64,000 nt of DNA from Patiria pectinifera. Lineage: Eukaryota; Echinodermata; Asteroidea; Valvatida; Asterinidae. The DNA is taken from the NCBI GenBank assembly GCA_029964075.1, contig CM057142.1, positions 1,875,770 through 1,939,769 of the forward strand. The letters are read 5' to 3'. Made by a program: the position numbers and the translations under genes. Below the pieces are notes generated by a model that worked only from the letters and a program-made list of their open reading frames with translations, was not told the DNA's origin and searched no databases. Shown here one piece after another: positions 16,318-45,200 of the stretch (its first letter is position 1; the number at the start of each line of letters is the position of its first letter).

Positions 16318-16588
16318 GGGGTCCACTCATAAGTCTGACGCCTCATAAGTCCGACAAAATCGCATCCCCTAACCAAATAAAGGCCTATAAGTCCGACACC
16401 TCATAGGTCCGACGCCTCATAAGTCCCACACCTCATAGGTCCCACGCCTCATAGCTCCGATGCCTCATAGCTCCGACATCTCGAAGGTCTGACAATTTAA
16501 ACGCCTCGTTTTTCCGACGTCGGACTTATGAGGCGGCGGATTTATGAGGCATCGGACCTATGAGGCGTCGGTCTTATGATAGGGCCCC
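16318..16588. repeat. Palindromic tandem repeat (fold-back) element
   Basis: The left three-quarters consists of about 15-17-bp units of the form CCTCATAAGTCCGACG. The right part (from about 16510) carries the same units inverted (CGTCGGACTTATGAGG), so the element folds on itself. The edges are also inverse: GGGGTCC-TCATAAG at left and CTTATGATAGGGCCCC at right. Confidence 0.75.
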
Positions 16589-18228: not shown

Positions 18229-18316
18229 GGCTGGATAGCTCAGTTGGTAGAGCACCGGGACGGCAATCCAGAGGTCGCAGGATCAAACCCCGCTTGTCAA
18301 TTTCTTTGTCCAACTT
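18229..18316 (+). repeat. tRNA-derived SINE head
   Basis: Starts GGCTGGATAGCTCAGTTGG, containing a good polymerase III A box (TAGCTCAGTTGG). A degenerate B box (GGATCAAACCC) lies about 40 bases on, followed by TGTCAATTTCTTTGTCCAAC. The acceptor stem does not pair well, so this is not a functional tRNA. No target duplication was identified. Confidence 0.65.
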
Positions 18317-18999: not shown

Positions 19000-19126
19000 T
19001 TAGTCGATAGCTTCTTGGAAGATGAGCTTGATGTAACCGGTATCCCCGCAGAGAGGCATTGCACAGAATGGACAGGCAGCTTGGAATGCATGGGTACCGT
19101 GCGGGAGGGGTACCTGCGACCAGTAT
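19000..19126 (-). CDS. peli: Pellino last coding exon (11)
   Basis: 127 bases to a TAA stop, acceptor GCCCACAG. It encodes YWSQVPLPHGTHAFQAACPFCAMPLCGDTGYIKLIFQEAID, closing the RING-like domain with Cys429 and Cys432. The C-terminal GYI-LIFQ is conserved in the family. Confidence 0.97.
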
Positions 19127-22100
19127 CTGTGGGCGGACAGAGAGAGATAAAATGGCATTAAGATTGAGATTAAGATTAAATCAGGTAAAAGTTACAACTA
19201 ACTGGATTCACATTGGACCACAACTCTGGAAGGGTTATTTAATCTGAGGAAAGTCAAGCCTGGATTTAGCATTGCACTTTGAGGTGAATAAAACTAGATA
19301 ATAAGTTGTTTTGGATTTTGGAGATTAAGACCAGAATGACATAAGATTATGACTGATATTATGATTACACATTGATTCAATGTCACTTGTTGAGATTAGT
19401 TCACGTTAACAACAATTCTCAAGTCAATGTATGACTGTCGTACAGACTCCACAGAGAACACCACTTGTATAACTGTATAACCGTTCTCCAAAACTGAATT
19501 TAAAAACTAGAAATTGTGGCTGTGAACAACCACAGAGCTGTTCCCAATATTGATTATCTGTTGGACCCATAGACATATAAGTAGAGATCTATGTCTGTTT
19601 GCAACAGAAGACAGGGCTTTCCGCATTATGATTTGTTTTTATCAACGTCCCTGACTATCACTATGCATGAACATAAAATCTGTCAAAGTTAGCCGGAAAT
19701 CGGCTAAAACGGTCACTGTGGACAGGATTTGACCTCAGCAACATGTGCGCTGCGCGCGGGCTTACTGACATACGATAATATACATGTACAACGTACAATG
19801 TACGTGTATGTACATGTCCATTGTGGACGTCTTGTGCATGTTTTAATGCAGAGGTATTGTCAACCTGAAGTTTTAAGCGTGCGCGGGGCATGTCCGAGTT
19901 TGCTTATTGCCTCAAAGCTTTGAAATGTTTTAGACCTACCCTTAAATAGACAATTAAAGTAAAAACTAATATAAAAACTGCCATGGTTGATTTTTCAGGA
20001 ATTTTCTAAGGATAAAGGGTCTTTTCATTATAACTTCCGGTCTGATGACGTCATACACCTTAAACTTCGCACACGTGTTAAGTGGGTCAAGGTCATCATA
20101 TATACCGATTATTAGGCAATTCTGACAAACTTCGCCACAGACATCTATTCAAAATACATTTTTGAAAATTTCAACCTGTCGCTAGAGGGCGCTCGAAGAT
20201 TGCATGACGTCATCGGTAGATGATTTAAAGAATACTATTAGCCAAGAGACTAACCCCGTTAAAAGCAAGTTCATATCTATTACCACTTTTAAATAATAAG
20301 CCACTTCCGGTTTTGGCCTTTTTCGACCGGAAGCAAGGGTCACGTGATTGCACGCACACTGAATGAAATAAAGGTCTCAACCTACTCTACCACTTGCCGG
20401 CAACAGAATGCTGCGGACGCGTACGGTTGATTTCTTATGCATTTTTTAATATTAAAAGTGTTACTATTCAATTGCCTATAAATAAACACCGGACGACGTC
20501 ATCATGACGTCATCATTACACAATGTTGTTTGAATTAGGGTCTTTGCTTGGACAAAGATTGGTGTAAATGAATTACTGGCAAAGAGTTGAAAATGCCCTC
20601 TGAAAATCGAGATTTAAAAAAAAAATCTGTGTACAAAGTCTATGGGAAAAATTAAATATTCAAAATTCTATAATAAATCACGTGATGACGTCAGCATGAC
20701 GAAAAGTTTCGGCATATATCCTCAGATGATTGTTAATGACTATGCCAAGTTTGAAGTTGATCGGATTTAAAATAATTGCCAAAGTGGCTTGTAGAATAAA
20801 TACGTGTACAAAACCTATGGGAAAAGTTCAATGTATGACTGTCGTACAGACTCCACAGAGAACACCACTTGTATAACTGTATAACCGTTCTCCAAAACTG
20901 AATTTAAAAAAAATGTCAACAGTTAAACTCTATAGTCTATGAAATGCCAGGAAAATAGGGGAAATTATACTTACTTGACTGTTTTTTCAGAACACACGTG
21001 ACCACAGGGAACATATGCATGGGTTGGGTTGCCTGAGTCGACATAGAAACTTGGCTCATTGCCCATGATGAGAGGTTCGTAGGAACCGGCCTGTCAGAGA
21101 AAGAAAGAAATGTGGTATAGGAAATGCTGGTGAGAAACGTTATTGAAGGGATAGAAATGTTTGCTGCCCTCTTTAGTTCAATGCATGGATATTTGTCAAT
21201 AGAGGGCAGCAAACATGCTGACTACAGAGCAAACCTAAGCCATTTCTGGTCTTGTAAATACTTGTAAATTTAGAATCACAATTGCAAAAATTCCCAATTG
21301 CAAAACTCGCCATTCATTTTTTTTTTTTATAAATACAAAATATAAACCAAAACGAGCAGAATAATATCCGCGTTTTACTAACTAAAGTGGCCAAAATCTT
21401 CAAAAATCGGACAGTTCTGCAATATTTTGGAATGTTAATGAGGGTAAATCCCTGTCAACATTAATTAACATACATGTAAGGGCCTGATGAGGTTGGTCTA
21501 ACTCTGTTTATGTACATCTACAAAGAATGTGACAGAGTGAACTGTTGGATTTTGGTGGATCAAAGAAGCTACCTTGCTAAAAATCCACCACCGTACAAGA
21601 TCCCAAGACAAATACTTCAATGTTCAATCGCCGTGTAAAGTGATAGTGGCTGGGCTGTACCCTTGTTCACTCCTGCAAAATCCATCCAAGACTTCTGTGA
21701 TTTGGAAGGATCTAGAAGCATTTAGGAACAAGTTCATTCAGGGGCTATTGGTCGACTTGTGGATAATTCGTGATGCAACTTATGATTCCACACTGACAGC
21801 AACATGCGAACGTCTTTAACGTGCTCCCTGGCTTTTTATCGAGATTCATCTAAAAAAGTACATTTGTTTTTTCAATTGCTATTTTCCTAAAAATCTTAAA
21901 AGTTATTCACTTTTGAATGAGCTATCGAATTAAAAAACTCACCAACGTTGAATTGTTGAATTATTTCTTCACAAAAATCATTTGATTGGCTGCCAGACAA
22001 TAATTCTGCTGTCGCAGGGCTGGTTCGCTTGTGCGCAAAATGAAAGCCCTTTTTCCAGAGAGCTGAAGACGCCCAAAATCAGAATAAAGTAGGTTTTGTT

Positions 22101-25100
22101 TGTTAAATCATACCATACAAATTGAGAATTGTTAGGAGGAAAAAAAAATCCATTTTTGAAGAGGACGGGATGTGATCTTCAATCAAACAATGCTCAAAAC
22201 ATCATCACAAAACTTCTTGATCCCGGCTCCCTGCTGTGCATAATGATACACACGGCTATTGGTTACCAGTGATGCAACCAGGGGTTACCAACCCCTCATT
22301 AGATCAGTCCCAAATAGTCAACAAAGAGCAAGGTCGGGTGTGAACTGATAGTTAGCCATAGTTGGACTAACTTCATTCAAACGAAGTATGGTTGCACTAC
22401 TCTAGTGGACTATTTGGAACCCGACCACAGGGCAAGGTAGAATCGTGGTTACCAACAGCTTCGCGCATCACAATGTACAATTTTGTGATAACGTTTGACC
22501 AGCGTTTGGCAACAACTAGAGGCATTCGCACATTGCTATAAAAGCGCAGGCGTAAAATTACATCACAAATTGACAACTAAATTACATCACAAATTGACAA
22601 CTAGACTAGTCCAACCATTTGTTGACTAACCAGCGTTCAACCAGAGTTAGTCCAAATTTGGTTAACTATAGTTCCTAATCAAACTTGCCCTATGATTAAA
22701 GCAAGACAAGACACCCTCTCACCTCCCTACACATGGGACACGTTCTCTCCATCTTCTGTTGTGTACTCTTACTGTCCCACTGATGATATCCGTGGACGTG
22801 ACCACATTTGAGGTAAGCATAAGGCTGCTTGGAGTTCTCATCTACAATCTGTGCCAACGGAAAAACAAACAATTCTCATTCAAATTTCGAAAGTGAGTCT
22901 TATTTCAAAATCATTTGGCATGATGCCTTTACATTTGAATTAACTGATCGTTGGAAATAAAGTGTACATATTAGCGAAATCGTGTTTTGTGATCAAAAGG
23001 TTGTGCATGTTTGTTTTTTTCCAACGTTTTCCTCGGAAAAGTGATATATCCATTGAACTGAAACTTCTACAGGTTGAGTTTTGAACATTCTTCTTTGGAT
23101 TTTGAGTGGTGTTATTATTGGAAACGAACAAAATGCATGAAAAGCAAATGATCCTATATGCCTTTATGTGTCCTTCAATATCAATGCTCTTTGTCATTTT
23201 TAACGTTGAGGGGGTGCTTGCACTACTAACCTTGGAAGTATGTCTATGTTTAGGGAGGACGAGTGTATTGAAGCCAATAGGACATTGTGGCCTGCTGTCA
23301 TTGATGCCTTGTCGTAACAGCTCAAGATGCTTCTGGGTCTGGGAGAGAAAGTCACAAAAGAGACTGTTGGTTATATCATTGTTTTAACTTTAGAAAAGTC
23401 ACTGCTTAAGTGTGGTCCACAATGCAGATGGGAAAAACGTGACCTTCGGTTGTATGATGGAATTTTGTATCGGAGAGATTGGGCACTTTTAAGAGCCCTC
23501 ATCTCAAGAACCATAGAGTGCACAGATATGCACACAGCTCATAAACGGAGTCAAGATGCTAGCTCATGCACATTGAGCTAGTATCGTGGTATTTCTTTGT
23601 CATGTAACAAGCATCATTGGCACCCTCCTTAGTACCTCTTGGAAGACTTAGGTACTACATGGAACCTGAGTGAGGACTTACTGGTGTTTTGAGTACTTCT
23701 TTGTTTTTACAAGCATCATTGGCACCCTCCTTAGTACCTCTAGGAAGACTTAGGTATTACATGGAACCTGAGCGAGGACTAACTGGTATTTTGAGTACTT
23801 CTTTGTTTTAACAAGCATCATTGGCACCCTCCTTAGTACCTCTAGGAAGACTTAGGTACTACATGGAACCTGAGCGAGGACTAACTGGTATTTTGAGTAC
23901 TTCTTTGTTTTAACAAGCATCATTGGCACCCTCCTTAGTACCTCTAGGAAGACTTAGGTACTACATGGAACCTGAGCGAGGACTTACTGGTATTTCAAGT
24001 ACTTCTTTGTTTTAACAAGCATCATTGGCACCCCCCTTAGTACCTCTTGGAAGACTTAGGTACTACATGGAACCTGAGCGAGGACTTACTGGTATTTCAA
24101 GTACTTCTTTGTTTTAACAAGCATAATTGGCACCCTCCTTAGTACCTCTTGGAAGACTTAGGTACTACATGGAACCTGAGTGAGGACTTACTGGTATTTC
24201 AAGTACTTCTTTGTTTTAACAAGCATCATTGGCACCCCCCTTAGTACCTCTAGGAAGACTCATGTATTACATGGAACCCGAGCGAGGACTTACTGGTGTT
24301 TTGAGTACTTCTTTGTTTTAACAAGCATAATTGGCACCCTCCTTAGTACCTCTAGGAAGACTTAGGTACTGCTTGGAACCTGACAGAGGACTTACTGGTG
24401 TTTTGAGTACATCTTTGTTTTAACAAGCATCATTGGCACCCTCCTTAGTACCTCTAGGAAGACTTAGGTATTACATGGAACCTGAGCGAGGACTTACTGG
24501 TGTTTTGAGTACTTCTTTGTTTTAACAAGCATCATTGGCACCCTCCTTAGTACCTCTAGGAAGACTTAGGTACTGCTTGGAACCTGACAGAGGACTTACT
24601 GGTGTTTTGAGTACATCTTTGTTTTAACAAGCATCATTGGCACTCTCCTTAGTACCTCTAGGAAGACTTAGGTACTATATGGAACCTGACAGAGGACTTA
24701 CTGGTGTTTTGAGTACTTCTTTGTTTTAACAAGCATCATTGGCACTCTCCTTAGTACCTCTAGGAAGACTTAGGTACTATATGGAACCTGACAGAGGACT
24801 TACTGGTGTCTTGAGTAGACCAGTTGCTGATCGCCATAGTAACGTGGCACCGCACAGATCAATGAGTGTGCCATCTTCAAGAATGTTGTCCTCATCATCA
24901 ATCTGTGCAGGAAAACGGAAGAAAAAGAAAGAAAAGATGATTAGTAAGAAATTGTTGCATCAGCATAGCATGTGAAAAAAAGGTTAAGTCTGTGTGAATT
25001 GAGGCAGTGCTATATCGGTCAATCACAAGTCAGATCACCAATATAATACAACTTGTATTTAACGAGTGATCAACAATGACAAAGTCATTTTTTTGGTCAT

Positions 25101-28100
25101 TTTATTTCAAGATTTGTAGTTTGTCACTGGACTTGTGACTGACTTGTGATTGACGTCTCATGACTTGATGACATCTCTGAAAGATTGTGACTTTTTTTCT
25201 TAATGTCACTACATCATGGCACTGATGCAAATTGTATTCTGTAATCTTCAACAAAAGACAGAAAAATGGCATGTGAGACAGTCACGTGCTAAAAATGTGT
25301 TTTTCTACAAAAATGTCTGTCAGTGAAATAAAAAATATAAAGGCATTGATTTCAAAAGCATCGGCTTTAACATAAATAACTAAATTGGAATGAATGAAGT
25401 CCTATGAAATTTTACTGCCTGAAACGGTACAAAAAAATATTTCAAAATACTAAGGCCAACAGGGAACAGAAACCCACAATGTAATATTTTATACATTCTG
25501 TAAAGACGTTATTAAATGGTAACAAAATGCACAAGCTAATGTATTTATGTTTTTTTCTGTTGACTTTAGCTACTCCAGCTCCTGTGTATGATGTCAACAC
25601 AAAACAGCGGCAAGACCAAACAGATCATTAAAATTCATGGCTTGTAAACTTAGATATTTTTTGTATATCAAAACTTATGCTGGTACTAGCTTTGAGCAGT
25701 GAAAGATAATGTATACACTGTATTATCACACATAAACATTTATGGTCCGTAACAATTTTTTCTTCAGTATTTGACAAGGCATGTATCAGATGTGCTGTTT
25801 GATTTATTCAACAGTGTAACGGCGGGTTTACGACATCCATTCTATGAAAAAATGCTGTGACATTACCATACTTTCCAGAATACGTTGCGCATACAATAAA
25901 TGTAACTTCAAGTACTGGTAAATTTGGAATAATATGAATACACAGTGCATCTGTAGAAAACAGAATTGTTGAGAAATTTGCCGCAGGAAATGTCTGTACA
26001 TCACTTTTTGTCCTCGTCACAATCCATCATGACTGCACATGACATGTGGTTCTAAATATACAGGTACATGTACATGCTTTCACAGAAAAACCTCAACTGA
26101 TGTCAATTTGGGCCTTCAAGCAGACAACCCCCTTAATTTGTGTTTCAAAAATAGTTGCAAGACATCTGTAATATATCCAGAATGTCCTTCCGGAAGGATT
26201 TCAAAGAAAGTTCTGCTTCAAAACACCGTTTCTGGAAACCATAAATCTACATACACGTACATGTACATATCATGTACTTGAGTGTATTTTGTACACAAGG
26301 CTTTACCCATGATGAGTCTCATGTTCTGAGAAAGCAGCATTTGTTTAGGACGGCAAGCATGATTCATGATGGGCTATGATTAATGCACGGAGCGTTCTGG
26401 TCTTTCCTGCCGCATTGAGTCATAAATCACTGACTTCAGAAGCTCTGGGTTTATTGATGTGAAGCCAGCTGGCGTGTACTGGGCAATGGGGAGAGCCGAC
26501 AATGCTCCACGGCCGACGACGTGGATGAGTTCATCAACCAATTCTTGTGGCTGAATCATTGGAAATGGACTTGGACTGGTACAGGAGTGGATATTTGTGT
26601 CACACACATCTGGCAATTCCCAAAGCAGTACCTTGCAAGCAGCTGAGGCTTTTAATGTCTGGTTTCATGAGAAGTTTACAGAGCAATTTGAGGTATAAAT
26701 GGACGTGGAAGTTGGAGGTAATGGTTGTCCATTACCATTGTCATCAATCATTTCACCACACAAAAAAGAAGTTTGGTCAAAGCCTCCCAATCCCATGACA
26801 GATGGTCCATGTTTGGCACCATCCATCACTGCCAATGATGACCTCATCTCATACTGCTAAGCTTAAAAGCTTCAAGCTTGCAAAAGTAACAACAGAAGGC
26901 AAGTCTACTAAAGCTGGTCCCAGCGTGCACAGAATTCTATTCCATCGATTAAAAATGGCTTAAAAGTTTGTAGAGTGGCGACTTAATTTATTGCCTGCAC
27001 ATGTGTAATGGAAGTACCGGTATGAAACAAGCAGAGCATAAGACTAACGCACACGTGTGGTACAGACTAATTTGGCAACACCCATAGGTTGCACCAGGCT
27101 CACGTGAATCGCGCTCAGGTAGTACGCACGCACTCCGGGCTCCGATCAACCAATAGGGTTAACAAAATGCAGGCGCACCTCGTCTTTAACAATGTGTATG
27201 GAATGCACGCGGACGGGGTTCCACCTCAAAATGGCTTCTAATCTTGTTGGCAGAATTAGTCTACAGGATCCTACATGATTGGCAAGCTTCATAATGCTGG
27301 TCCCAGGCCAGTGTAAGTGACATGTAATGGTGGGATTGGCAACCAGTCTATTTCAGTGAGACAGGTGGAGAGTCGGTCAATCAGTCAGTGAAGTACATGT
27401 ATAAAGAGGACGCTAGGCTGGCTCTCGGGGACCAGCAGGAAACAAAATGGAAATCAGGTTACCACTTAACTTGTCAGCGTAAGATATTACTTTAATTGGT
27501 ACCCTGCTAAATTCTACTCAGCAAAAACGCTAATAACGCAAAACATTTGAGCACAACGGCCCTGAGACATAATGATGTCACGCTTTGTTTACATGTGCCC
27601 TTTCCTATGGGAGCCAGCTGGGGACAAGAGCCACCAAGCTCCCATAGGAAAGCACACATGTAAACAAAGCGTGACGTCATTATCCCATTCAATATGCGGG
27701 GGATAAAATGATGCACAACAGGATGAACAAAACGACCAGGAATGTGGTAACTGGTAGCTGTGAAGTGACTATTCTCTTTCATTTGGGGGGGAGGGGGTGT
27801 TGCTTACCAGTTTTCCTTTTTGTTGTGATGATCTAGTCTCTCGTAACGAGTAGATGTTTCCACCTACAGAGACCTCCCTCCAGACACCGGGCCTAGCATC
27901 GGACTGAAACCCACCCCTAGGTCTCATGATGAGAACACCGTTTGTCGTCAGTCCATCCATGCCAAATTCTGTCTTCCACTTACAGGCTTTCTCCTGAAAA
28001 ACGCACAAAATGAAGACAAAATCATCCAATCATCCTTTTTTAATTAACAGAACTGTCCTTAACGTTTGTCTTCATTCAAACATTTACTGCCACTTCTGTA

Positions 28101-31100
28101 CCAGTACAAACAAAATATGTCTAATCTGGACACTGATTCCATTTTGTAATCTCACTCTATGTGCAGTGCAACCTTAATGGACTTGTATAGTGCTGCTTCT
28201 ATTTACGCAACATTATTTGGCTGTTTCCAGCAGTAAGACACATGTCTGTAGGAAGTTCCGGTAGCTTAAAACGTTTCCATAGTCGCAGGTGCCATTGTAG
28301 CCATGGCCAGGTAATTTAAATACTGCCTTACGTTCCGTCTGAGCAATAATTATGTTCATCAGCTGCCTCTGTGTTGTAAAATGCTTGCAAGCATATATAC
28401 CGGGTATCTTAACATGAACAGCATGTTTTACCCATTCACCCTTAATGCACTTTGCATACCGTATGAACATGTACATGTACATGTACATGTACAGTGAAAT
28501 CTTGTTAAGTCAAAACCTGTTAACTCAAAAACCCTTCTAACTCAAAAGTAAAAACGTAACCATTGTTGTTGAATAGAACATCCATTGGATAACTCAAAAC
28601 TCTGCTCAACTCAAAACTCTGCTTCCAATCCCCCTGAGGTTTGACTTATCGAGATTCCACTGTACAATTCAAAACTCCCTCCCCTCCCATACCCTTTAAG
28701 CCCCTCCCATCCACTGTGCCCCCCCCCCCACTCTCCTGTAACTGAACCCCTCCCCTCTACTCTCTGCTCTATGGCCTCACATCTCCCCTTACAATCAACT
28801 AATTATTCTGCCAAACAGGGTGCCTGACAAAACGCAATCAACAAACGCTCCTGTAATATTGGAAAGCCAGAGAAATGTGACACCTGCAAAGCACCCCCCC
28901 AGTAAACTGAAAGTCATGGATCTAATAATCCCCCCCTCCATAGCCCCCCCCCACTTCATCTGTCTTCTCCTCAACAAAGTGGACTGACTCATGCAAATGC
29001 ACACCTGCGACCGCCAGGCGTTATGTTAATTGTAAAACCCACCGTATCCACTGTGTTATTGTGGCTTCAATAGCCAAAGATAATGTATCATACACATGTG
29101 TATGAAGATGCAACTAGTGTCCTTTTTATTTTTATCAAAAAGGGGTTATTTTGCTTGACAGATCCACATGCAATGCATGATTTCATTCTCTTTGTGGCCC
29201 TACACAATCACAGACAGACGAAAACAAGAAACACTGTTGCTGTCAATCTCTTTGAGAGTCAAACAAACTGTACCGGGGTACACGTCACTTAAAATTGAGG
29301 TACATTAACCAGCGGACAAGGAGCTGATGAAGCAACCTTACAAATATAAGTGACGCCCACTGGAAATGGCAGGTCAATACAATTGTCATAGTGCATGGTT
29401 TAATTCTGTTTGATTAAGACAATTCCATTCTCAAGGAATTAAGCCGCAAAAACAAGCCTATGTGGTCAACACACTTAAGGCTTGATTAGGTGGAGTACAC
29501 GCACTTTATATTTGACTAGACTTGAGTCTCAGTCCCTTTGGAGAAAAGGGTACATTAGTTTGAATGGCTGTGTTGCACATGCATTGGAAACACTCTGTAA
29601 ATTTAACAATTGTTGACTGCTGTGATGTGGGATATGACGTTTTTTCGCCTCGGGTGCTATACATGTGCCCCGAGGGTTTTCAAAACGTCATATCCCACAT
29701 CACAGTAGTCAACAATTGTTTTGTTATACCTCTGTCTTGGATTCTTTGGATTTTGATGTAAAAATCACGAAAACAAACAGCAGTAAACACAACAATCATG
29801 ACAATCGAACGTCAACTCACATGCATGTCGCGTGCTCGAAACAGCTGATCGTCTGCTAGTTCGCTGCTCCCACTCATGTGTGAAAACATGGTGAAAATAG
29901 CATGGGTACCAACGACACACCGTACGTACCGTACGTACAAAGTCATAGCACACTCCCTGTGGGATATCACGCACATGATATCCCACATGGAGTGTGCCAC
30001 GACTTTTTATAAACTTAACACGCGATCGTTCTAGACCAATCAAAATACAGTATTCAAGACAGAAGTATAACAATCCTACTTATCCAAAGCATTCATTACA
30101 CTGATCCTTGCAGCTTATTAACTTGATTCCTACTACAGATGTAAACGCTTAGATTCCAGAAAAAATAAACTTGGAAACAACAGTGTACACAACTTCATAG
30201 TCCACTAGCCTTTAAAAACTCCTTCCATTCACTGGCCAATACATGAACTCCTAAAATTGCATGTACATGTATGTACATGTACTTGCTAAATATGGACGGA
30301 TAATACTGTACATGTAGCTTTATTTGGAGCATTTTCATCATTAATTCCATCAAACAAAGGTCAATTATTACAAAGGGAAAGAGTACAATTGCATTATGTG
30401 ACGGATGTTGTCTTTCCCTTATTCTCATGTTAAACTTGTGTCGCACAAATCCTCACAAAAATAAGGGGAGGTTTGGTTTATCACTCTGGTTTTGCCACTC
30501 TGGAGTCAGGGTGCTTGAGTCACCAGCCGAGAGGCCCGAGGCGTCAGTATCAGACTGACCTCAGTAGTGTGTTGGGTGATGACCCTACGATACGACACAC
30601 ATATATTCCCCCAATAAATACCTTTTCGGTAAAAAGATCAAACAATTCATTCAAAATGATTTTGTTCAGCAAGTTCACTTCATGCTTTTAATGGAATGTT
30701 CAGCAGGCAAGATGTAAAAACAACTTTATGGAGATTACGGACGCGCGTAGGCATGCATGCGACATGGACGCGCCGACGCGATGTCAGAACGACGCACAGG
30801 AAGGGCGTTTTGAATTAGAAATAAATAAAATGACTCTCGCTGGTAGTGCTGCGCATGCCTACGTGAGGGACTGTGATCTTCTCAACCAATAAACGGTAAG
30901 AGACACTGGATTTTTAGGAGTCGACACTGGAAAAGTGTTTAAGACTGGTCTTAAACACTTTTCCATGTCTATCCATGTCTTTATCATCCGTTACCAATAG
31001 GAATAGCTAAACTGTCTGAGGTATTTATGAATAGCCTATAAAATACCTACGTCAGGCAAAAAGGGAAAAGGGGTATTATAAAGGTAGTCGTAGCCTTCCC

Positions 31101-34100
31101 TATTAATGAGTCTAGCTAGCAGGATCTACATCTTAGGATGATTACATGTCATCCTCATCCTGAACTGATGACTGCATGAGACGATCACCAAACACAAGAC
31201 AGGGTCGCTTACCTCATTACGGTACAGAGCAGAATGGTCATTAGACTTGCCTGGATGATGACTAGGATTGAATTCATAGAGTCACATGGGAATTGTTTTA
31301 CACAGAAAACATGCCCACTCTACATGTTTACTGCTTCTAAGATAATGATTACGAGAGGATTGCTTCAGTTCTTAGCACGATGACTAACATTCATTTCAGA
31401 GTCAAAGTACACTTGCAACAGATTCTAGCAGTAGCACACAAATACTTGATGGCAAACAGAGTCGTCATAGGAATTCCAACATCACTGTGATTGTGAAGCA
31501 CTATCTGCAATTACTGTCTCCTCATCTCAGGATAGAGGTAATGCCCAACAATTCTGCGGACAGGCTGACTCTATTCACGCAACAACAGAGAGGGTGATTC
31601 TTGGTGATTTTTGAGAGGCCTTTTATAGCATTTGGCGCAGCAAAGATTAAGATAACCCGCTTTGATCTGGGAAAACTGTTGTAAAAGAGAAACTGCATGA
31701 AAAAATTCTTTAAAAAAGAAGCTAATATGTCAAGTACGGTGTAATAAATATGTCTACGTTCATTGTAGAACACAACCTCCAACCCATATATCCAAAAAAG
31801 GGATAAATGCTAACATTCAAACAACCACAATAATTAAAGTGCCTTCCTATAAACCATAAGGACATGCAAAAAATATAAACCAGCCCCTTGTCCCCGCTCG
31901 CTTCCCTTTTTCCTGGCCACCTCCTCTTTATTTTATTTTTTTAATTCATACATTTCCAATATATTTTGCACATACAGGGTACATGTACATGTACATGTAC
32001 ATGTATTGTCAAAATTATAGCTGCATACATGTGCCGGTGTAGCATGACATTAGGATTTGTGAAATAGGGACTCACTGGTGGTATTGCGCATGCTCATGCA
32101 TAGATAATTAGGAGAGGGACCGGTCACGTGAGAGGGTTTAACCAATAAAAAGGGAAAAAGAGTCAGATTTTCATACGAGTCCGATTTTCATATGACACCA
32201 GTACATGTAGAAAGGGTTATGGCTCCTTTGATCGGACACAATTTTGTATTCAGTAAAATAGTCGACAAAGTTGAAGAATCCATCCGCGATCTTGGAAAAT
32301 CCGCCATCTTGAGGGGAGAAAAAACAAAAGCGCCTACCTCCTTCAATTTTTCATACACGTAAAGGACAGAAGAGAAACTACAATGTACTTATTTTATTTT
32401 GACTGCGTAATTTTAATCGTTCTCTATAAACACAATACCGGTAGATCTACACCTGTTCAAAAAGGATTCCCGCCACCTTTAAAACTTTAATTACCGGTGT
32501 CGCTTGGTTTCAGCTTAACCAGGGAGTGCCTTAGGCATGTTAGGAGTACAGTGTCTCCTAATTCAAGCAGGAAATGAAGAGATCACATCAGATTTATCCA
32601 AGAACTGAATCTTGACGCTTCCCGACCCTAAATTGGTAGAAAATCGATGCTTCGAGTCATATTACATCTATCCATTGCTTCCCTGAAGGGCTCGTTGCAA
32701 TTTCTATCCAATATAAGAAGGTTATTCCTCTTTTCCGCGCTTCGTCTTTCCGATGAAAGGAATCTTGAAAGCCTATTCTTCCCGGCACATAATTTGAAAT
32801 CCCTCCCTTGGGGCCTACATGTTGGCCCGCTTCATGCGTTAATAGCTTTCCCTGCACGTTGATATGAATGGGCTGGACACAATGTTATGTTGTTATGAGG
32901 GTTTAATAGTCGTGACATGACAACTCAATTCAATACATTCCTTGTGAATGTTCCTTTACCGGCAGCTGTCAAATCCTACGTAACTATTTCTTGATTTGCA
33001 GGGCAATGACATGGCTACGTGTTCTTCTGATGAGTGTGTTCTGATATCAGTGTGGGAATTAAGACATTTCCTGTGACAAGAAAAATACCCAGAAAAAAAA
33101 ACTTCTCAGATGCAAGTGCGGACTGCCAAGCCCTGTATAAAAAATAATGTCAATATCATTTCCTGATACATGGATATTGCTCAAGAATTTGGCAATAACA
33201 GAACTGACCTGATTTTCCATCAATTGTTACACTTATTGTACAATGTAAAATGCATACATGTACGTGAAACACTCCCCCAAATGAACGTGGTTTTTTCCTA
33301 CTTTTGTGGAAAATTTGGGGGGAATTACTTAATATTTTGTCTGCATATATATCACACCTTAACTCAAAAGGATTGAGGCTGTACATGTATGGCAAAAATG
33401 TACAGCTAATTTTGGAGGATGCACTGTGTCAAGGTCTTGGGCCGGACCTTGTGTTGTTTATGCTCAGCCGTGCATAAACGTAGGCCTAGATTATGCTTGA
33501 AATCCTTCGCGCTGCTCCAGGGTGTCACTGGCTCTGCCTCAACATATTGACAGTGATTGCTGGAGGATTTTGCAAGATTGAGGCAGTGGTCACTCCTCCA
33601 AGGAACACATTCAAGACATAACGAAGGATTTTGCAGGACTGAGGTTGCATCCTAGCAAAAATGCCTAGGGAGTTAAGGTTAAATGTCACTGTTGGTGGAT
33701 ACTGTCATATGAAAGCATTAAAGCATTACTATTACGTGCGTGCAAATGTACGTGTACAATGTACATGAACTTGTGTATTAGTGCATGCTTTCAACATGTC
33801 TTACGGTTAGGACTCATCTACATACCGTTACATGTACATGTACATGTACATGTTCATGGACAATTCCATGAGAAAGTAGACATGGCTGAAGAGTGGAAAA
33901 TTTAATGAAATCTTCAGAAACTACAAGCATCACTACATGTACCTCAAATGTGGTATCAATGAAAGGGAACAACAAGAAATTTCATTTCAGTGGTGTGCCA
34001 GTGAGATGGGATATGGTTAAGTGTTTTTTTTTGGTAAACAAAATTATGTTTTTTGAGGGCTAAAATTGTGGATTTTGAGTAGTCATTTGAGCACTTAGTT

Positions 34101-37100
34101 TTTACACGCAAAATGCAAGTGTTATTGTGAGTGTGTGAGCCAAATGCACCCCAATTACTTTGACTTAATAGAATAGCACAAAGTTGAAAACCCCTTCTAA
34201 ATGTAACGTGAGTTACCATGGAAATGCCCTCATGATGCAGAGAAACACAACCGCCAATGTGAAAGCAGGCTAGTTTTAGTGCAAATTGGAGATAATCACA
34301 GATTCCCCCCAATTTTGATAATTAGGCCTACAGTAATTGTTTTCCCCCACAGTGCCATGTTCATGTGTTCAAGGGGATGTTCAAATGATAAGAAAAATTT
34401 CATGAAAGAAGTAAATCGTGGTACCAAAATCTACATGACATTCAAACAAAAAATTCTCCTTTTTTTAAATGAAAGGACAGAAGAAAAAAAGCCATTTTCG
34501 GCCAACAAATTAACTCTTTCAATGAAAACAAAATCTTTTAATAGATGTACAGATTTGTGCTCCATAAGAATCAACTCATTTGCATTTGCTGAATAACTTT
34601 GTTACGACACACTTCCAAACATGTATTAACTTTCAATACAAGTACGTGTAGACATGGTTGATGTACAAATTTAGCTACCATACATGATGTATGTATGCAA
34701 AATAGCAGAGGAGAGTGACATCTTAATCCGGCTAGATATTATCAGGATTAAAGGGGATCAGCATGGTATGGCAGCCCATGGCATATACCCTGATCTTATA
34801 AAGGAACCAGGATTCCCATGCAAGATAAATCCTCTGGTAGGCCTATTGCTGAGAGTCAAGTATGACCTTTAATGCACCAGCTGCATGTGTGATCTCTACT
34901 TGCGTGACAGTCCAGCACATTTTGGCAGACAAGATTTCTCAAATCAAGAAGAGCAAGGCTGGTTTCAGCAGCAAGGGACTGGCTCAAATGGAGAGGCAGT
35001 TTGTTGGCTTGTTATAGTGTATACTTTTACATTGAATAATGAAAAAAAATTAAAATGTATTCTTTTTTTGGGCATCTGTAACCCTTTGCGAAAAAAAAGC
35101 CTTGATTTTACTTGCTTTTGCATTAAAGTCGACTGGTTCCCGGTCCCAACATTTTGATAGGGCATCAGGAACCAGTCTGGCATGCATGAAACTGAATTGT
35201 CAGGCCGCATTTAAATCAAGTTTTCTGCACTGCTAGGAATATATCAATAAAAAAACACATATTTTTATCAGGGTAAAACTCAAAACTAGCTTGTGCGTAA
35301 ATGTATCTTAAAAAAAACATTGTTTCTTTGATAGTCTTGTTTGTAACTTTTTTTTTATGTTTTGGATTTTTGACATACACAGCAGTACAGCACAACTCTC
35401 AACCTACCGGTACGAAACACCACTAGAAAAACATACATGTGCAATAATGCATGTGTGCTCATCTACATGTACATGTACATGTACATGTACACATGTACGT
35501 TGGTACCGGTACTCGGCAATGTCCACTTCTGGTTGTTAACGCTGAGGTACGGTACATTTGCACATGTACATGTCATGCTACCAGGAAGTATCAGAAAGGG
35601 CCTTCCTTTGTGATTTGATGGCCACATTTTATAAAGAACATAATTTATGCAGTATGTACGGTACATGTACATGTACATGTACATGTATGCAAGTCTGCTA
35701 GCACATTCACAAGTTTAGTTTATCCTCGGCGTTTTTGCCGGTTAAACCTCAAAATCCATCACTGTAGAGTAAACAAATTCACAAAAAGAAAATTAGAATG
35801 AGTGGCTCTGCCTACTGAGACAGTCTATTCCAATTTTCCTGTTGCCATGGTACCTTCATCCGACCTCTTCTACGATTGTTTAGATCTGAGGTTTCACCAT
35901 TGTTGAGTACCGCATCTACATGTAATAGTAATTTTAAAGATGTTTTTTTTAAAAGTCTGCAGCAAACATTAACATGTACTTGCAGTGAGCAAAGGCTCAT
36001 GTACAAATGTACATTATACCAATACCGGTACATGCTACATGTAGCTCTGTGGTACCAGTACATGTATACAATAAGGAGAAAGGTTTAATACATTGTACAT
36101 TTGAAGTGTGTATGAGTGTTTACATACATTGTACAATATGTATAAGTACGTGTACGTGTACAATAATCACTAAAGGTCTTACATACCGGTACATGTATAC
36201 ATGTACATGTACTGCACATGTGAATCTATACAGAAAGGTTTTCCTTCTCCCAAAGCGAATCCTATGTTCAAATTTCCAGGATACAAGGCCACGTGCAAAT
36301 AATGCAAACTCCATCTGGGAAAAAAGGCAAAAGACAATGTACTATATGCCTAATAGGTTTAATTGAAAAGTTAGCCAAAATAGTTTACATTTTTAATAAA
36401 ATAATGCATGCATCTATAATATTCCGAACCTTATGTTTTTCTTATGCACGAAATTAGAGACCCGATCCGAATATCTTTGGTGGGTATTCTAGAAGTCTGT
36501 TTCTAGAGGCGACAGTAACAAGACCTTCGTAAACGCAGACCCTGCTGAAAATATGATCTTATTTGGTAAAGTCTGAAGCAACACGCTGATATCCAATGGT
36601 GTTTGTGTACATTAGGAATACACATGCGCGGGAACGTGTGGACAACATACATGGACGTACCGGTACATGTTTGTATCATGTTTGGACAGTTGAATGATAT
36701 ACATGTCCAAACACCCCTGTAATGCAATATACATGAAGCCCTGAAGGTAGAGAATCTGAGAGATGTCGCCAAGAATCTCAAAAATAAATTGGATGTGGAC
36801 CAACAAGATAAGGAAACTCTCAGGGCCATTTTGTTTTGAGGACACGAGTTATCGTATGCGTTGGTGCTTGGAATGTGCGAAGGCTACCAGGGTGCGTGAC
36901 GTTTAATCCCTTCACCGTCTACGGGAAATACGGTTGGACAGGGAATCGAGATATCGCATCAAGGGCAGGGGAACAACACAAACAAGCAACGTCTGATTTT
37001 TGTCAGGAATCGTGAAACTTCCAGCTTCTGAAAGACTTTTGATCCTCCAACCCTAAAAAAAAATCTAACTAGTATTTCTGCTGAGCAATTTGACTTGATG

Positions 37101-40100
37101 CCTAAATGGGGAATGGGGTCTTAAAAGCCAGATAAAAGTTACCGGTACTAACATACATGTTACATGTTTTTGTAACTTCAAAGAATTAGAGTAGAATAAA
37201 TGACGGGCAACCATTAGAAAATTGGATGTCCGAATTGAACTTGAAAACAACGTTTTTAATTCACTGAATTTTGATGTTTTACATATTTGCAAAACTAAAT
37301 GAGGTACGCAAAATAGCCTTAAGGGTGCCCAAAAGTTGAAAAGATACCTCTAAATTGCTAAAAACGGAAATAGAATTACAGTAGTTATTTAACTTAAATG
37401 TTTCTAATTTGCAGAAAGTGTTTCATATTCTACAAATTGCCCAAATACAGGTACCGGTACAGGTAGACTTTTGGTATTTAATTTTAGGACCCGTTGGTGC
37501 TGTAATCAAATTCTAATCGTGGTATTAAGCCTTAATAGTTTTGTCGATTTGTCTGAAAAGTTTTTGCAAAGAGTTCTGACTTTGCTGTGTATCGTTTCGC
37601 ACCGTAAATTATTTCCATGCATCCCAATAAATTGCTGCTGACATCAATTTTAAGAACACTAATGGGTGATGAAAAATGGCCAATACCGGGTAGTATCAAA
37701 GGCTTTTTGCGGGCTGCCTCGTGCCTCCTATTTTATGCTTTCAAGTTGAGCCATTAGCATGATAGAGAGGCCATCCTACACTGGGACTCACCCCAAGGAA
37801 GATATTGTTAGAGGAATTGAATCCAGCCGCATAGATCCTTGCCGCGTGCGGCGGGTCCCGATCACAGATGATACGACAAGCAAACCTGGATATCGTACTC
37901 TCCGCTACCGTACACTCTTCCTGCGACTTGGCGCCCGGTACCGTGTCCATGACGACGAAATCGATGACGGGCTCGGTGGAACGACCAATCTGAAATGGTC
38001 GAAAGCGGAAAGAGGGTGCACTGTTACAAGACAGACCAAGTTTTACACTTGACAAAAGTAGGGTTGGTGATTTCCTATCTTTGCAGTTTGAGAAGGTCTG
38101 TTAATATTGTGTTTCTTCCTTTAAATTTCTAGCCATTTTAAGTTGTTTTTTTTACAGGGTTCTTGAAGGGCTTAAAAGCTGTTCTAAAAGGGTTGCCATT
38201 CCTAAAAGGGTCCCTTGATCTACAATTTCCTGCTTTGCTTTTAAATTTCCGGTATTTCCTGTCCTTGTCAATTAAATGTGCAAGAAATGTTACTGGTTTC
38301 AATGAAGTTAAATACTACATGTACTACCGGTATAAACAAACTTTTTAAACTTATTTGTTCAACGATGATCCAGATATGTACATTTTACTGTATGCACATT
38401 GTAGGCCTACCAGGTATCTTATTATTCTTCAGTATTTCACTCATTCATATGTAATATTAAGTTTACTCTACATAAAAACATAGTTAACTTTGACCATTTT
38501 TGGCAAGCATTTTTAAAGTTAACTACATGTACACATGCAGAAATATTGTGGAGTGAATTCCCCAAACCCCTCCCCCCCCCCATTTTAAAAAAAATGCACA
38601 ACGAAATAAAACTCTGATTTCAGCTTAAGGAAAAGCATGTTATGACTGTACTATTGTTATACAAAATGTACCACTGGAAACCATTAAAATGCTGCATGTA
38701 ATGAGCTGTATTAACAGATGGCAACCATAATGCGATAATGGCCAATCACTTGGATATTAAAAAGACACATTGCAGTCAAGCTGAACACAGCCTGGGGTTG
38801 CTTCAAAGTACACATAACCCTGGAGTTAGTGGCTTATTAATGATGTGAGTCATATGATGTTGAAGTCATGGAACAGTATTAGTCAAGAATCTGATGAATA
38901 TTCAACAACTGGATTATCACATGATAGCCTCTAATACATGTATCTTATCAGATGCAGATTCATGAATATTCATGAGCCATAGTCAAATGTTCTAGCAGTA
39001 GGAGATGGACCACGGCCGCCACTCACCTGGAACATACCAGCTGAGGGACACTCCAAATGCAAAACAAACTTTTGAATATTCAATCATCAGACAATCACAT
39101 AATCTAGCAGACAAGGATGGACCATTGGCATCACTCACCTGGAACATGTCAGTGTTGTTGTCTGATGAATATTCAACAACCACTGTCTGATGTCTTGATA
39201 ATGTGTAGGCTATGGTGTGCTTGCCTTTCTTGGGGCTCTGACAGGAGAACAAAATAATGCAGGTACACCATAATGAGTGTAGTAAGAGTGAGTCAGTAGA
39301 CCTTACGCATTGCAGGTATCTTAAGAGACTGTTCCTTGTTGACTCTAGTAACAATGAATGCACCAAAGTATTACTCATGCCTGTGCAAGCTATACAAAAC
39401 TGTAACTCCACCTTATTGGAGCCTACAGTTTAAATGAACTTACATTTTTAGAAAAAAAAGAGAATCACCTCAGTGCACATGAAGGAACATATTCAGATGG
39501 CCATGTACATGTAAGGCTCTGGTGTGTGGACCGACCGCATGTGCCAGTACCGTATCTACATGTAAAGACCTTTTCACACTACAGCCTCTCAACCCAGGTT
39601 GAACTCAACCCTGGGCGAACCAAGTGCCGCCCCGTGTTGATGGATTATTTTTCAACTCCACGTTCAACCCCACATTGTTTCTTGCAAATGGACCTTATTT
39701 CACTCCGTACTACCGTTTTGAACCCTGGCGAAAGTTTCAACCAGGTTGAAAATCTCAACCCTGGTCTGGAGCAGGGTTGAGTTCAACCCTGGCCGAAATC
39801 AATCTCGGGGTTGACGCAGGGTTGACGCGGGGTTGAACATTTTCAAGTGTGAAACGCCGCATGTTTTCAACCCTGCATCAACCCCAAGATTTTAAGGGAA
39901 AGCATAATCCTCTTCCTCCCCAAAGCCTGTGATCCCCTGCCCTTGTGCCCCCCCCTTCAGACTTTGGGAGTGAAAATAACTGCCCCTCTCCAGAAAATGA
40001 GGCCTCCTACATAAATGTATTACATGTATGGCTCCCCCTACAAATTGGTTACGTTATTTGCATGTGTGTACTGGTTCAGGCTCGTATGGCACAGAGCAGC

Positions 40101-42166
40101 ACGACCAATTTGTATCTGATTGAGCTCAAACCCATAGCAGCTTCACAGGGGGGGGGGGAGGACTTGTGCATAGACTCAATTTTGTCCACTTACCTGCCCC
40201 CCTTTCTGTGGACTGACTTCATACTGTTTGTCTGGCTTGACGCCATTTGCCGTCTCCCTCTTAAACAGACCGAAGCGACTCCTCCGTCTGCCGCGATTGC
40301 CTGAAGGCAAACAGCCATTGTACCTGCACAGTGAAATACAGAAATGCACCAATTGAAATTTTGTATCAAAGATAAACAAGACAATGTGAGGTTATGTACA
40401 TGTATAGATCTGCATATTGTATTTTGCAGATGAATGTGATTAAATACAGTGTTTGTACAGAAAACAGAATTTTGAATTACATGTTCATGTACATGTAAAG
40501 TCACGTAAACTTTAACAAAGGTTGTGTTCTCCATCAACACTTTTGCATTATCTGTTTTATCAGTATTGGATGAAAAATATTGCTGGCTTACTCCCAGCCT
40601 GTTCAAGGACCCCAAAAATATTTAGATTTGTTTGTGTTTACTCATTGTTTGTGTTTCATCATTTTGAAAGCAAGTTGTTTTTTTGTAAAAGGGATATATA
40701 TAGCAGAATGCCAACCCACACACCCGAAGTACATACATGTAGTACATGTATGTACCCCATGTCTCCACAACTCGACCACCAAGCTTGATAAATACTTACA
40801 AACAATGGCATTCTTTAGTGGTTTTCAGGCAAAGATGACATCTTAACACTACATATTCACATCACTTGTATACAGTATGTACATGTACATGTACATGTAC
40901 AATCACTTGAACAGCTTCTGTACATTCCAAACGTACACGTACCAGTACTCTCAATCTCATCTTTAATATTCATTTATTCAGTTTACAAAAAAATTACATT
41001 ACTGTTGATAAGGAGAAACACACTTTCTCCCTTTATCCAAAGTAGTAGCTACCGGTACATGTTCAAATGTAGGACCCAGTGCCGCTGATAAGATTAAGTC
41101 ATTGAAATCCACATAATTGATTGTGTTAAGATCAGTTTACATGGTGCGTACACATGGAACTAAACCCACGATAATTGAATTGTTCGGAACTGGTTCAGAC
41201 TTTATACCGGTAATGCACGCAGCTCAAAAATTTTCATTTTTGATAGAATTACCCCAGATCTTTTCTTGCAGAACTTTATAATTTCATGTATTGTAGGCCT
41301 ACAGCTCCTGTTAAGAAAAACAGAACTTTCTTTACACTACATTACAGACAGGTTAAAAAAAGGCTATTAAATAATCTGTGTAACTGCTGACAAAAATTAA
41401 ACTAAAAACACTGTTCACGTAAGATTAAAAACTCATTCACTACATACATGTATATGTATTTTGTAAAATTTGCCAGGAAAATCTTATATTCTCGGTGAGC
41501 AAAATCCTCAACGAAGGGGTGGAAATGTACAAGGGGAAAAAAGACATAAAACTTGATATTATCAATATCATCATGCTTCATGGCCCACAGTTTACTTAAA
41601 AACTGCATGCACTGATCTGTAGTTTCATAAATGAACTTTTGAATCACTCCCTATTTAAATTGCTTCCATCTGAGTACACACACTGAAGACAGTCAAAGTG
41701 AATATGACAAGACAAAAACATGTCTGTTGCCATGCCTAGCACATTTGGAGATAATTGACAAGAATTTATTGTACTGTGAGTGTGAGCCTGTGCCTGTGAG
41801 GTCAATGCACTACTTGAGGCCTGAAGCCCATCTGGTTTTTATTTGTACGTACATGTACTGGTAGCTACAGGGTGTCTATTTTCTTATTACTTGATGTAAT
41901 ATCCATCTGGAGATTATCATTGTGGAGGTAATTATCCTACAGATGATAAAAGGATTCATTAAACCTAACTCTCCAGGTATTTTTGATTAAAATTTCCAAA
42001 ATCCTCAGAAAAATTTACTGCTCTGCATACAGTAAAACCAATGGTGAAATTAAATGCTTACTTTTAAGTCAAGAGGCATTACATGACAGTAAGACAGAAA
42101 AAAAATGTGTTTAGGCCAAAAAAAAGTTCGGTTTCAAAAAATGGGCTTTGCTAAAAGTGGTGCGGC

Positions 42167-42202
<36 letters not shown>

Positions 42203-45200
42203 TTTTTTTTTTGCTTCAAATGACTGCAATAGTACAAACTAAACTGCAAACACATACATGTATATATGTGAGTCCCAAAGAAGCATAAGCTTATTCTCGA
42301 ACCCCAAACCCAAACAAAAAAAAAAATTAAAATTGTGCAGCAGCAGGATTCAAACCAGTGAGTTTGGTTGTTGTGGTTTTCACACATCATTGAAAAAAAA
42401 ACTTTTTTTTTTTTTTGCCGCGGCATGGCTACAGCGGGCGGCGCATACAGAAAAACCGGAGACTATTTCTTTTTGGCCTTATGGTAATGCCCTAAAAATT
42501 GTCCAGGTTGGTACACAAATGTAGACTGTAGGAAAATAATCAGAACCTGATAATTATATTTTGTAACTTTTTATGTCTGTCCGTCAGTCTTTTATATTTA
42601 TTTTTTAGTATATTTTGGCCGGGCACTACCACTTTCTAATTCCCGCAAACAAATTCCTCCAAAATTCACTTGGGTATTTCTGAGGGATCCAGGAACGTTA
42701 GGGTTAATTCGTCCATTCATTCCCTGAATTCCTTCATGCTTGAGAACAATCTAGCATGGCAAAACAAAATGTATACCGTACTACACCAAACAAAATAGAC
42801 AAAATATGAATCATCTGAACTATTTTGCTTCCTGTCTGAGGACAAGGTTTTCTGATTCCCTTGGAATCAAGAAAACACGCCCTTGTCCAGTGGAAGGTCC
42901 TTGATAAAATTAATATCCCACTGACAGAAAACAATTTCACCTGCACGACATGTGCTGAAAGGCATCTGAGGCCCCAGTACCTGGACTGAGTGAAGGGTAA
43001 ATGTCACCTTGATATTTCACACTGTGTAAGAATGTGTGGATCACAAACCCCCTACTATGTCTTGCTGTACTCAGCTTGGCTGACAGTGATGTCTCAAGTA
43101 CAAGGGCTAAATTTCTTCCGTGAACCTTTACACATACGTGTAAAAGCATGAATCTGTATTTATGAAAGATTGTTTTCTTGTGCGTGTACACGTACATGGA
43201 CATATATGTAATGGGTAGGTTCGTGTACAAATACTGTACATGTACTGGTACATGTATCAATTCATTGAAGTTTATGAGATTTTGAGTAGTTTGTAGCAAT
43301 TAAAATAAATATACAGTATTAACTTTTAAGCTAAAAAATAGTACTACCGGTTCCATTCTGTGATGCACTTGGAATACAATTTCCAGAAATTTACTCCCCC
43401 CCCTTACATCATATTTTGGAGTTGCAGAACTCAATTTGTAACAATCATGTCTGCACATACCGGTACATTGTACACATGTAGCCCAAAATATTGGCACAAT
43501 GTTGCTATAGAATAGACCTTATGCGTTAGAGGCAATGGCTTTGTATTGCACGGATAGGTACCGGTATGAGTAAACCATTTGTGCATTTATTGTTACTCAA
43601 TTAAAATAAGAAAGAAACCATCTGAGATACCCGCAATGAATAAGGTCTATTGAACCCTTCCAATGCTTCCAATGACAACCAGGTGTAAATCACATATGTG
43701 TACATGAGGCTGCAGTGCTATGGTGACTGTTGTCACTCAGACAACAATTTCTTTTGTCATCGCCAGGTGAACACTCTTTGCAAGGTTATGAACCGATGGT
43801 ATGGCCTTTCTTCACCGTGATTTAATTACTCAGCTTGATTGAGTTTGTATGAAACCTTTACCGGTACCTGTACACAGCGATGCAGCCACATTTACTACAA
43901 TGTTTAGAATCTCTTGTCCAGATATTATAAAATACATGTACATGTGGAACTGGATATTCATGTACCGGTACCAATGTTATATTTCAAATAGAAATGTGTG
44001 AACGTGAAATGTGTGAACGATCAATCTGGAGAATTGTCCAAGTATGAAATATCTGTATGTAATTTTGTACAGAAAATGAAGAATTCCTGCACTTAAGCTA
44101 AGAGCAAAACAAGTTCCAAATTTTCAATTTGCATAATGTACACACTCAATGTACCTAATATAATCGTCTAGTATCGTGTCCTGTTCATTACTGCACTAGG
44201 TACGGTACACATGTATGTATTGGAACATGTATACATTTTGTAATTAGTTTTTAAATGTGTGTGAAAGCCCCAGTTGCCTTGCAAAATGACCAACATGGGG
44301 CCTACAGTTCATCCTTTCTACGTTAATACACAATTCTAAAGGGTTTAAACAACAGTACCGTACAAAAATCTGCAAACACATCTGTTCTGATGTGTACAGT
44401 ACATGTACCGGTACATGTACGTGCTCATTTATCTTCAATGCCCAACTCTACAAATGAACCATGAACTTATTGCATGAACTAGGCCTCCAACGAGACCAGT
44501 CAAGCATCGATTCGATCGCCGCAAAGCCGCAAGACAACCACAGAAGGATACCCCTGCTCACGGAAAAAACCCAGGGTTTTCCTTGTGCAACATTCGCAGC
44601 AACGCAGAGCATCAAACGTGATGACATTGCTAGTGGCGATTGTCAGTGGCTCATCAGAGAGAATGAAATGAGAGGACTTGGCGATGATGCGGTGGTGGAG
44701 GAGACACTCCGGTGAGCTGAAGGGGCTTGAGACGCCAAAGATGATGATGAAGTATCATTGATCACCAGACACATCCCAAACCAAACGCAGGATCCTGGCG
44801 AGGGATTACCGCGCTGAGCCGCAACGACAAATTGCTATGCACTCTAGTCTCAGCATCGGCTTGCTACATGTATGATGCCGCCACTCAAGATAATCATATT
44901 ATTACTCACGGGATAAAGTACATACATGTACAGTGTCTTTCTAAGGGACTTTCCTTTTTGTTTCATGTACAAAATGTACATAATTGTACTAACAATACCG
45001 GTACATGCTTTGATAAAACATTCATGAGTTTATTATCATTTTCCAGGTTGTCAGTAATTTTTTTTTTAATGCTTCATGTACCGGTTCGTGGTATCAAAGA
45101 TGCTTGCAAATTTAATGTCTTAAATGTAAATCCCTGTAAAATTGTATGTGCGTGTAGGCCAATACAGGGTGAGTAAAAAAGAAACGAAACCCAAATGTCG

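Follow-up and report, generated by a model that had tools for sequence, protein, structure and literature searches.

A tandem array built from the end of a Pellino exon multiplies its splice donor in a sea star: a candidate echinoderm mirage

Introduction

How is one splice donor chosen when the intron behind it holds eleven near-identical copies, and what becomes of a transcript in which a copy is chosen instead? The question is raised by a Pellino gene of the sea star Patiria pectinifera, in which a 102-bp tandem array runs from the end of a coding exon deep into the following intron. The locus amounts to a natural experiment: the true donor, nine copies identical to it from −3 to +8 and two weakened copies stand at 102-bp steps, which leaves mainly position as the explanation of the choice, and any splicing error in this gene of immune signalling would be legible as a single defined product. 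Here we analysed the 64,000-nucleotide stretch of DNA that contains the gene (the window) and compared the array with tandem repeats known to cross exon–intron boundaries elsewhere. We consider it likely that the array arose by duplication of such a boundary, is close to neutral and leaves the true donor in use, with any leakage being degraded.

Results

The host exon lies in an intact Pellino gene

Our gene model has ten coding exons, which run along the minus strand between 48418 and 19000 and join into one frame of 407 residues; a further 5′ exon is possible. The initial annotation had recognized the gene as Pellino, and Pfam agrees, with matches to Pellino_FHA at residues 2–255 (3.8e-129) and to Pellino_RING at residues 261–407 (1.3e-69). 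A search of the whole genome for Pellino_FHA gave five exon matches, all of them within one gene, so Pellino looks single-copy in this genome. The exon that carries the array, previously numbered 7, is coding exon 6 of the ten modelled, and an extra 5′ exon could still make it the seventh. It encodes residues 217–249. The alignment to PDB chain 9if9_B (Pellino1, 251 residues) ends at residue 249, the same place as the end of exon 6, and that to Pellino2 (3egb) runs across the junction of exons 6 and 7 up to residue 273. Since the reading frame is open through all ten modelled exons and Pfam and PDB matches cross the array junction, the host exon is intact. The features are as follows, all on the minus strand and taken from the gene model, with the further evidence in brackets.

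19000..48418, minus strand: Pellino gene, modelled coding exons (Pfam; start of exon 1 provisional)
48418-48384, minus strand: exon 1 (start provisional)
40323-40194, minus strand: exon 2
39237-39139, minus strand: exon 3
37989-37792, minus strand: exon 4
27993-27808, minus strand: exon 5
24902-24804, minus strand: exon 6, 99 nt, phase 0/0, final part of the FHA region (Pfam, PDB)
23339..24803, minus strand: intron 6, 1465 nt, ending in TCTCCCAG
23338-23231, minus strand: exon 7, 108 nt, TQKHLELLRQG...
22848-22723, minus strand: exon 8
21090-20975, minus strand: exon 9
19126-19000, minus strand: exon 10

Other repeats were seen along the gene. Intron 9 holds a direct repeat (20910-20780 and 19506-19378; 134 alignment columns, 84% identical), and a degenerate tandem duplication (distance 176, 67%) lies at 48279-47898 of the window, about 105 nt past the donor of exon 1.

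The array repeats the end of exon 6 and its donor twelve times

TRF placed the array at 23589-24817, with a period of 102 bp, 12.0 copies, 94% match, 0% indels and a score of 2090, the top score among the 32 TRF rows for the window; the earlier range of 23608-24816 was about right. The array begins in the final 14 nt of coding exon 6 and occupies 83% of intron 6.

23589..24817, minus strand: 102-bp tandem array of 12 units, running from the end of exon 6 over 83% of intron 6 (TRF, unit alignment, genome search)
24796..24803, minus strand: true 5′ splice site, GTAAGTCC (sequence and gene model)
23674..24701, minus strand: eleven decoy donors (sequence)
24701, 24599, 24497, 24395, 24293, 24191, 24089, 23987, 23885 (GTTAGT), 23783 (GTTAGT) and 23681, minus strand: first G of each decoy (sequence)

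Each unit combines about 14 exonic nt with 88 nt of intron. In unit 0 the exonic part is the real end of exon 6 (its last 14 nt), which bears out the proposal that the array was made from the exon's own end. Against unit 1, 13 of the last 14 bases before the donor are shared (TACTCAAGACACCA versus TACTCAAAACACCA); upstream of these 14 exonic nt, the likeness of exon 6 to the unit consensus fades. Mean pairwise identity is 92.5% among all units and 93.4% among the inner ten. The closest units are 2 and 4, differing at 1 site, and 9 and 10, differing at 2, while units 0 and 1 show no difference across 84 intronic nt and four across 18 exonic positions.

The twelve minus-strand donors, in forward-strand coordinates at +24803, 24701, 24599 and so on down to 23681, are separated by exactly 102 nt in 11 of 11 spacings. 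GT is present at the donor site of every unit (12/12), as GTAAGT in ten and GTTAGT in two. Ten donors read GTAAGTCC; the other two read GTTAGTCC and lie at +23885 and +23783, confirming the two variants noted before. The initial annotation's near-identical donor copies were indeed present in all units, but the bases upstream of them vary: among the 11 decoys the donor is preceded by ACTCAAAACACCA in six, ACTTGAAATACCA in three and ACTCAAAATACCA in two.

Position, rather than the splice site itself, probably selects the true donor

Nine of the 11 decoys match the true donor base for base between −3 and +8. These ten sites also share a predicted U1 pairing of −5.6 kcal/mol, which weakens to −1.7 in the two GTTAGT copies. 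Local RNA structure was considered as the selector and rejected: in the predicted folding the true donor (mean unpaired 0.50) falls within the range of the decoys (0.11–0.64), and four of them are slightly more accessible. With identical sequence, equal U1 pairing and undistinguished accessibility, the splice site itself cannot carry the choice, and selection of the true donor probably rests on position. The chosen site would be the donor nearest to the authentic acceptor of exon 6 and the first to be transcribed. It closes an exon of 99 nt, whereas decoys would make exons of 201 nt or more, a difference that could act through exon definition.

Two further roles for the units were rejected. 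As recursive-splice (ratchet) sites they read ACACCA/GTAAGT or AATACCA/GTWAGT, with no AGGT, an A-rich lead and no pyrimidine tract. As tandem or mutually exclusive exon duplications they hold only about 14 of the 99 exonic nt and no strong acceptor: a good acceptor was not found among the 124 AGs in the array, where the best pyrimidine share was 0.69, versus 0.75–0.94 at Pellino's nine acceptors.

The decoys could nevertheless compete, because none of Pellino's nine donors is predicted to pair more weakly with U1 than that of exon 6 (−5.6 versus −7.5 to −13.2 kcal/mol) and four decoys are slightly more accessible. Nor is the non-use of decoys a rule, since in human IFI6 (6-16, G1P3) a minisatellite is reported to supply donors that are used: a title cited in PMC2572611 names it as providing multiple splice donors, and PMC4526556 describes use of the extra donors, giving different isoforms. 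The Pellino minisatellite similarly multiplies a donor. Several of its donors might then have a low rate of use, as functionless noise in splicing, an idea that gains from the nine decoys equal to the true donor. The two genes differ in outcome, however: two downstream units are described as used donors in IFI6, and its extra donors give different isoforms, whereas each extra Pellino unit adds a stop and would truncate the protein. We regard such low-level use as improbable, though the best placed of the alternatives to a silent array.

Every decoy would lead to one premature stop

Reading past the true donor gives ...LLKTP-VSPLSGSI-TAG, that is, 8 codons and then a stop, in keeping with the earlier expectation of a stop within ten codons.

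24777..24779, minus strand: TAG stop on readthrough, 8 codons past the true donor (translation)

In the gene model, all 11 decoys meet this same stop, 75–1095 nt before the new junction. The ladder of twelve near-identical donors proposed by the initial annotation therefore exists, but its eleven decoys would give one product and no ladder of isoforms, because every decoy or retention event meets the one shared stop. The period, although a multiple of three as had been pointed out, is without coding consequence: the readthrough stop comes before the first decoy. The prediction that readthrough would leave the FHA region without the RING fits the end of exon 6 at residue 249, where the 9if9_B alignment stops; the Pfam FHA match extends slightly past this point, to residue 255.

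Nonsense-mediated decay (NMD) follows a distance rule of 50–55 nt that is known from mammals; echinoderms may differ. A sequence scan found neither AATAAA nor ATTAAA in intron 6, and among eight poly(A)-type signals scanned there, AATACA at 24268 alone was present. Decoy-spliced or intron-retaining Pellino mRNA is thus probably NMD-sensitive, and because the stop lies 75–1095 nt before the junction and the intron is without AATAAA or ATTAAA, degradation is more probable than the persistence of an FHA-only protein.

These observations weigh on the idea of a regulated poison or switch, in which the cell would deliberately employ decoys or retention to produce an FHA-only Pellino, able to bind its targets but not to ubiquitinate them. 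The readthrough product (residue 249 plus VSPLSGSI) does stop near the FHA boundary, the true donor is weak and faces copies identical to itself, and IRAK binding and inhibition of signalling are reported for an insect poxvirus Pellino with an FHA region and a truncated RING (PMC10383966). By analogy, an FHA-only Pellino could act as such an inhibitor if some RNA escaped decay. The shared stop nonetheless predicts decay under the mammalian rule, the intron offers neither of the two main signals scanned for, and one decoy would suffice where eleven are found. Amphioxus arrays of this kind are, moreover, reported not to disturb splicing (PMC3087553, PMC3902484). We give a purposeful switch little credence.

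The array is derived from its own locus

A 307-nt query from the array was compared with the 613.5-Mb genome, and 6 of 6 matches fell inside this array; the search skips simple repeats and very common words, so that absence elsewhere is strongly indicated, short of proof. Confinement to one locus indicates that the array is locus-derived and makes a transposon or dispersed satellite less likely. We propose that a short stretch astride the boundary of exon 6 and intron 6 (about 14 nt plus 88 nt) was duplicated in tandem and that the minisatellite then grew by unequal exchange inside intron 6. Repeated exchange fits the block structure, in which some pairs of units are nearly alike (a single difference for 2 and 4, two for 9 and 10) and units 0 and 1 share the same intronic part. 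The pattern of units 0 and 1 in particular would fit exchange within the intron, the coding end being held by its own constraint. The array itself is most likely close to neutral, although the absence of indels across 1.2 kb could also reflect selection or recent expansion, and leakage to any decoy would yield one premature-stop mRNA, mostly degraded.

Insertion of a transposable element or dispersed satellite at the end of exon 6 is largely contradicted already and very unlikely: arrays with this unit size are common within some elements, but here the query matches only this locus, the unit holds exon 6's own last 14 nt, and 0 of 21 inverted-repeat pairs listed for 22000-25500 have arms at both array ends (one pair, at 23016-23033 and 24909-24926 with 83% identity, surrounds the array at a distance). 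Equally slight is the chance of an artefact that falsely expanded or collapsed the array; tandem arrays are prone to misassembly, and one amphioxus case looks misassembled in a draft genome (PMC3087553), but the units carry private variants, beyond its ends lies exon and intron sequence that is single-copy, and the host contig spans 54.9 Mb. The copy number of 12 is as given by one assembly.

The array resembles the mirages of amphioxus

Boundary duplication has a described counterpart in the mirages of amphioxus, tandem repeats across exon–intron boundaries, many of them with AG/GT signals (PMC3087553). Data on Adh3 and RT-PCR of globins are reported to suggest that regular splicing is undisturbed there (PMC3087553); the Adh and TnC mirages are likewise said not to disturb splicing, as is suggested for PGBD5, with units of 60 and 108 bp (PMC3902484). 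Mirage length is described as varying in Adh3 and BflGb6 (PMC3087553, PMC3902484). As in the reported cases (Adh3, TnC, the globins BflGb6 and BflGb9, and PGBD5), the Pellino unit spans an exon–intron boundary and leaves the host exon intact, many units keep the splice signal (GT in 12/12, GTAAGT in 10/12), and 102 bp falls within the unit lengths given (10–72, 60, 108 and 150–160 bp). Like mirages, the array is also locus-specific, within the reach of the genome search. It differs in its host, an echinoderm and not a cephalochordate, and in its 12 copies, compared with 6 and 3 in the BflGb6 haplotypes and up to 7 in a PGBD5 repeat in one browser version, as reported. Intron gain by internal duplication across proto-splice sites (the Rogers model) is treated alongside mirages (PMC3087553) and similarly involves tandem duplication with splice signals; the Pellino repeat, in contrast, sits inside an existing intron, and no new intron was seen.

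On these sequence features we classify the Pellino array as a mirage, a new case in an echinoderm; the donor duplication itself has its precedent in the amphioxus mirages. No echinoderm mirage was found among the papers listed by the literature searches, which covered titles and abstract openings, with few echinoderm-specific searches and subscription journals mostly outside. Within that literature, mirages described in lancelets would now be carried into an echinoderm and no longer be tied to one lineage.

A second, degenerate duplication lies at exon 3

When the context of each Pellino donor (9 of 9) was compared with the opening 2 kb of the intron that follows it, exons 6 and 3 scored above all 200 shuffles and the other seven did not. 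The exon 3 features are these.

39073..39152, minus strand: end of exon 3, donor (G at 39138) and start of the intron, first copy of a degenerate boundary duplication (self-comparison)
38963..39040, minus strand: second copy, 72.5% over an 80-column alignment, donor ATGTTCCAG plus GTGAGTG (G at 39026), 112 nt downstream (self-comparison)
38866..38941, minus strand: further degenerate copy, located in intron 3 and matching the interior of exon 3 (1 of 1000 plain shuffles scores as high)

Searched with a 181-nt query, the duplication was found at a single place in the genome. Judged by its sequence, exon 3 carries a second, degenerate mirage. If its donor copy were used, the gene model predicts a frame shift and a stop in exon 4. 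Preferential conservation of this donor copy was rejected (16 of 18 core positions versus 44 of 59 others; Fisher p 0.33).

Repeats beside donors recur at other exons

We compared with themselves 73 exon loci, consisting of all matches found for globin (10), phosphagen kinase (12) and ADH_N (26) and the best 25 of 75 for myosin. The ends of matches are not always exon ends, and some matches lie in long open frames. Duplications touched the exon match or its 40-nt margin at 8 of 73 loci, all of them myosin (best 25 of 75 matches), and at 2 of 9 Pellino exons, exon 1 being left out; none of the 48 non-myosin loci had a local duplication inside the margin. Within 40 nt outside the match end, repeats covered the donor side at 7 of 73 loci and the acceptor side at 0 of 73; the corresponding counts were 8 and 3 at 40–150 nt, 11 and 6 at 500–1000 nt and 7 and 4 at 1000–1500 nt (myosin again as the best 25 of 75). 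Pellino exons gave 2/9 and 0/9 within 40 nt. The seven donor-side loci represent at most five independent cases, since L080 and L082, and L083 and L084, look like paralogous pairs, and some asymmetry is expected because acceptor flanks are constrained by the branch point and pyrimidine tract.

Among the loci inspected, only L068 clearly repeats exon sequence. The end of this myosin-head exon (L068:1674-2007) recurs as degenerate copies in the intron: in 380 nt around the exon end AAATCCAGGGT occurs eight times (one exonic) and the donor context GGCAAAGTGAGT twice. The donor is possibly a GC site, or else sits 6 nt farther along. This exon apparently carries another mirage. Six other myosin loci (L072, L074, L080, L082, L083 and L084) were not counted as mirages, as their exon content is weak or absent. 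L072, L074, L080 and L082 have CACAAGTC-type or TCACGATGCTG-type repeats starting at or soon after the exon donor, and L083:1678-2226 and L084:1669-2219 are 132-bp arrays (about 3.9 copies) whose repeats begin a few bases past it in two look-alike genes. The L086 repeat pair (distance 330) lies partly inside the exon.

These sequences suggest that mirages recur in this genome, though perhaps not as a general feature. A donor-anchored process is a hypothesis that we hold with doubt: tandem amplification beside 5′ splice sites may be recurrent in the sea star lineage as in amphioxus, shared by distant deuterostomes, with exon 6 as a young product and exon 3 as an old one.

At the ADH exons, a 10-bp repeat (L049) was rejected as an Adh3-type mirage, lying about 20 nt before the acceptor. 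L040:1878-3165 is an array of about 17 copies of a 75-bp unit; the end of the locus truncates it, and it does not cross the ADH_N match, which is 213 nt away. Three phosphagen-kinase matches (L017-L019, C21:20549324-20552194) fall within a single open frame of 1119 aa, which we take to resemble a three-domain creatine kinase.

Other features of the window and genome

A genome search with PF02084 recovered the core exon of bindin, a protein not known outside echinoderms, as a single match (1.0e-33; KIDLPVDINDPYDLGLLLRHLRHHSNLLARIGDPD). Within 1.5 kb of it, the published Patiria miniata bindin primers QPA-F and GML-R (PMC3605852) match at 23 of 23 and 18 of 19 positions and face each other, as expected for Patiria miniata or a near relation; the Pisaster LAR primer has no match with up to 3 mismatches. 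COX1 had no match in the assembly, and neither did the GFP family PF01353, the latter a weak negative because the controls were blank as well. The window itself includes a run of N (10732-11231, 500 bases) and two Rfam tRNA matches on the plus strand, at 50175-50247 (47.7 bits) and at 18229-18299 (29 bits, exactly at the cut-off). At 16383-16579, two 16-bp arrays in opposite orientation lie near enough to form a long hairpin.
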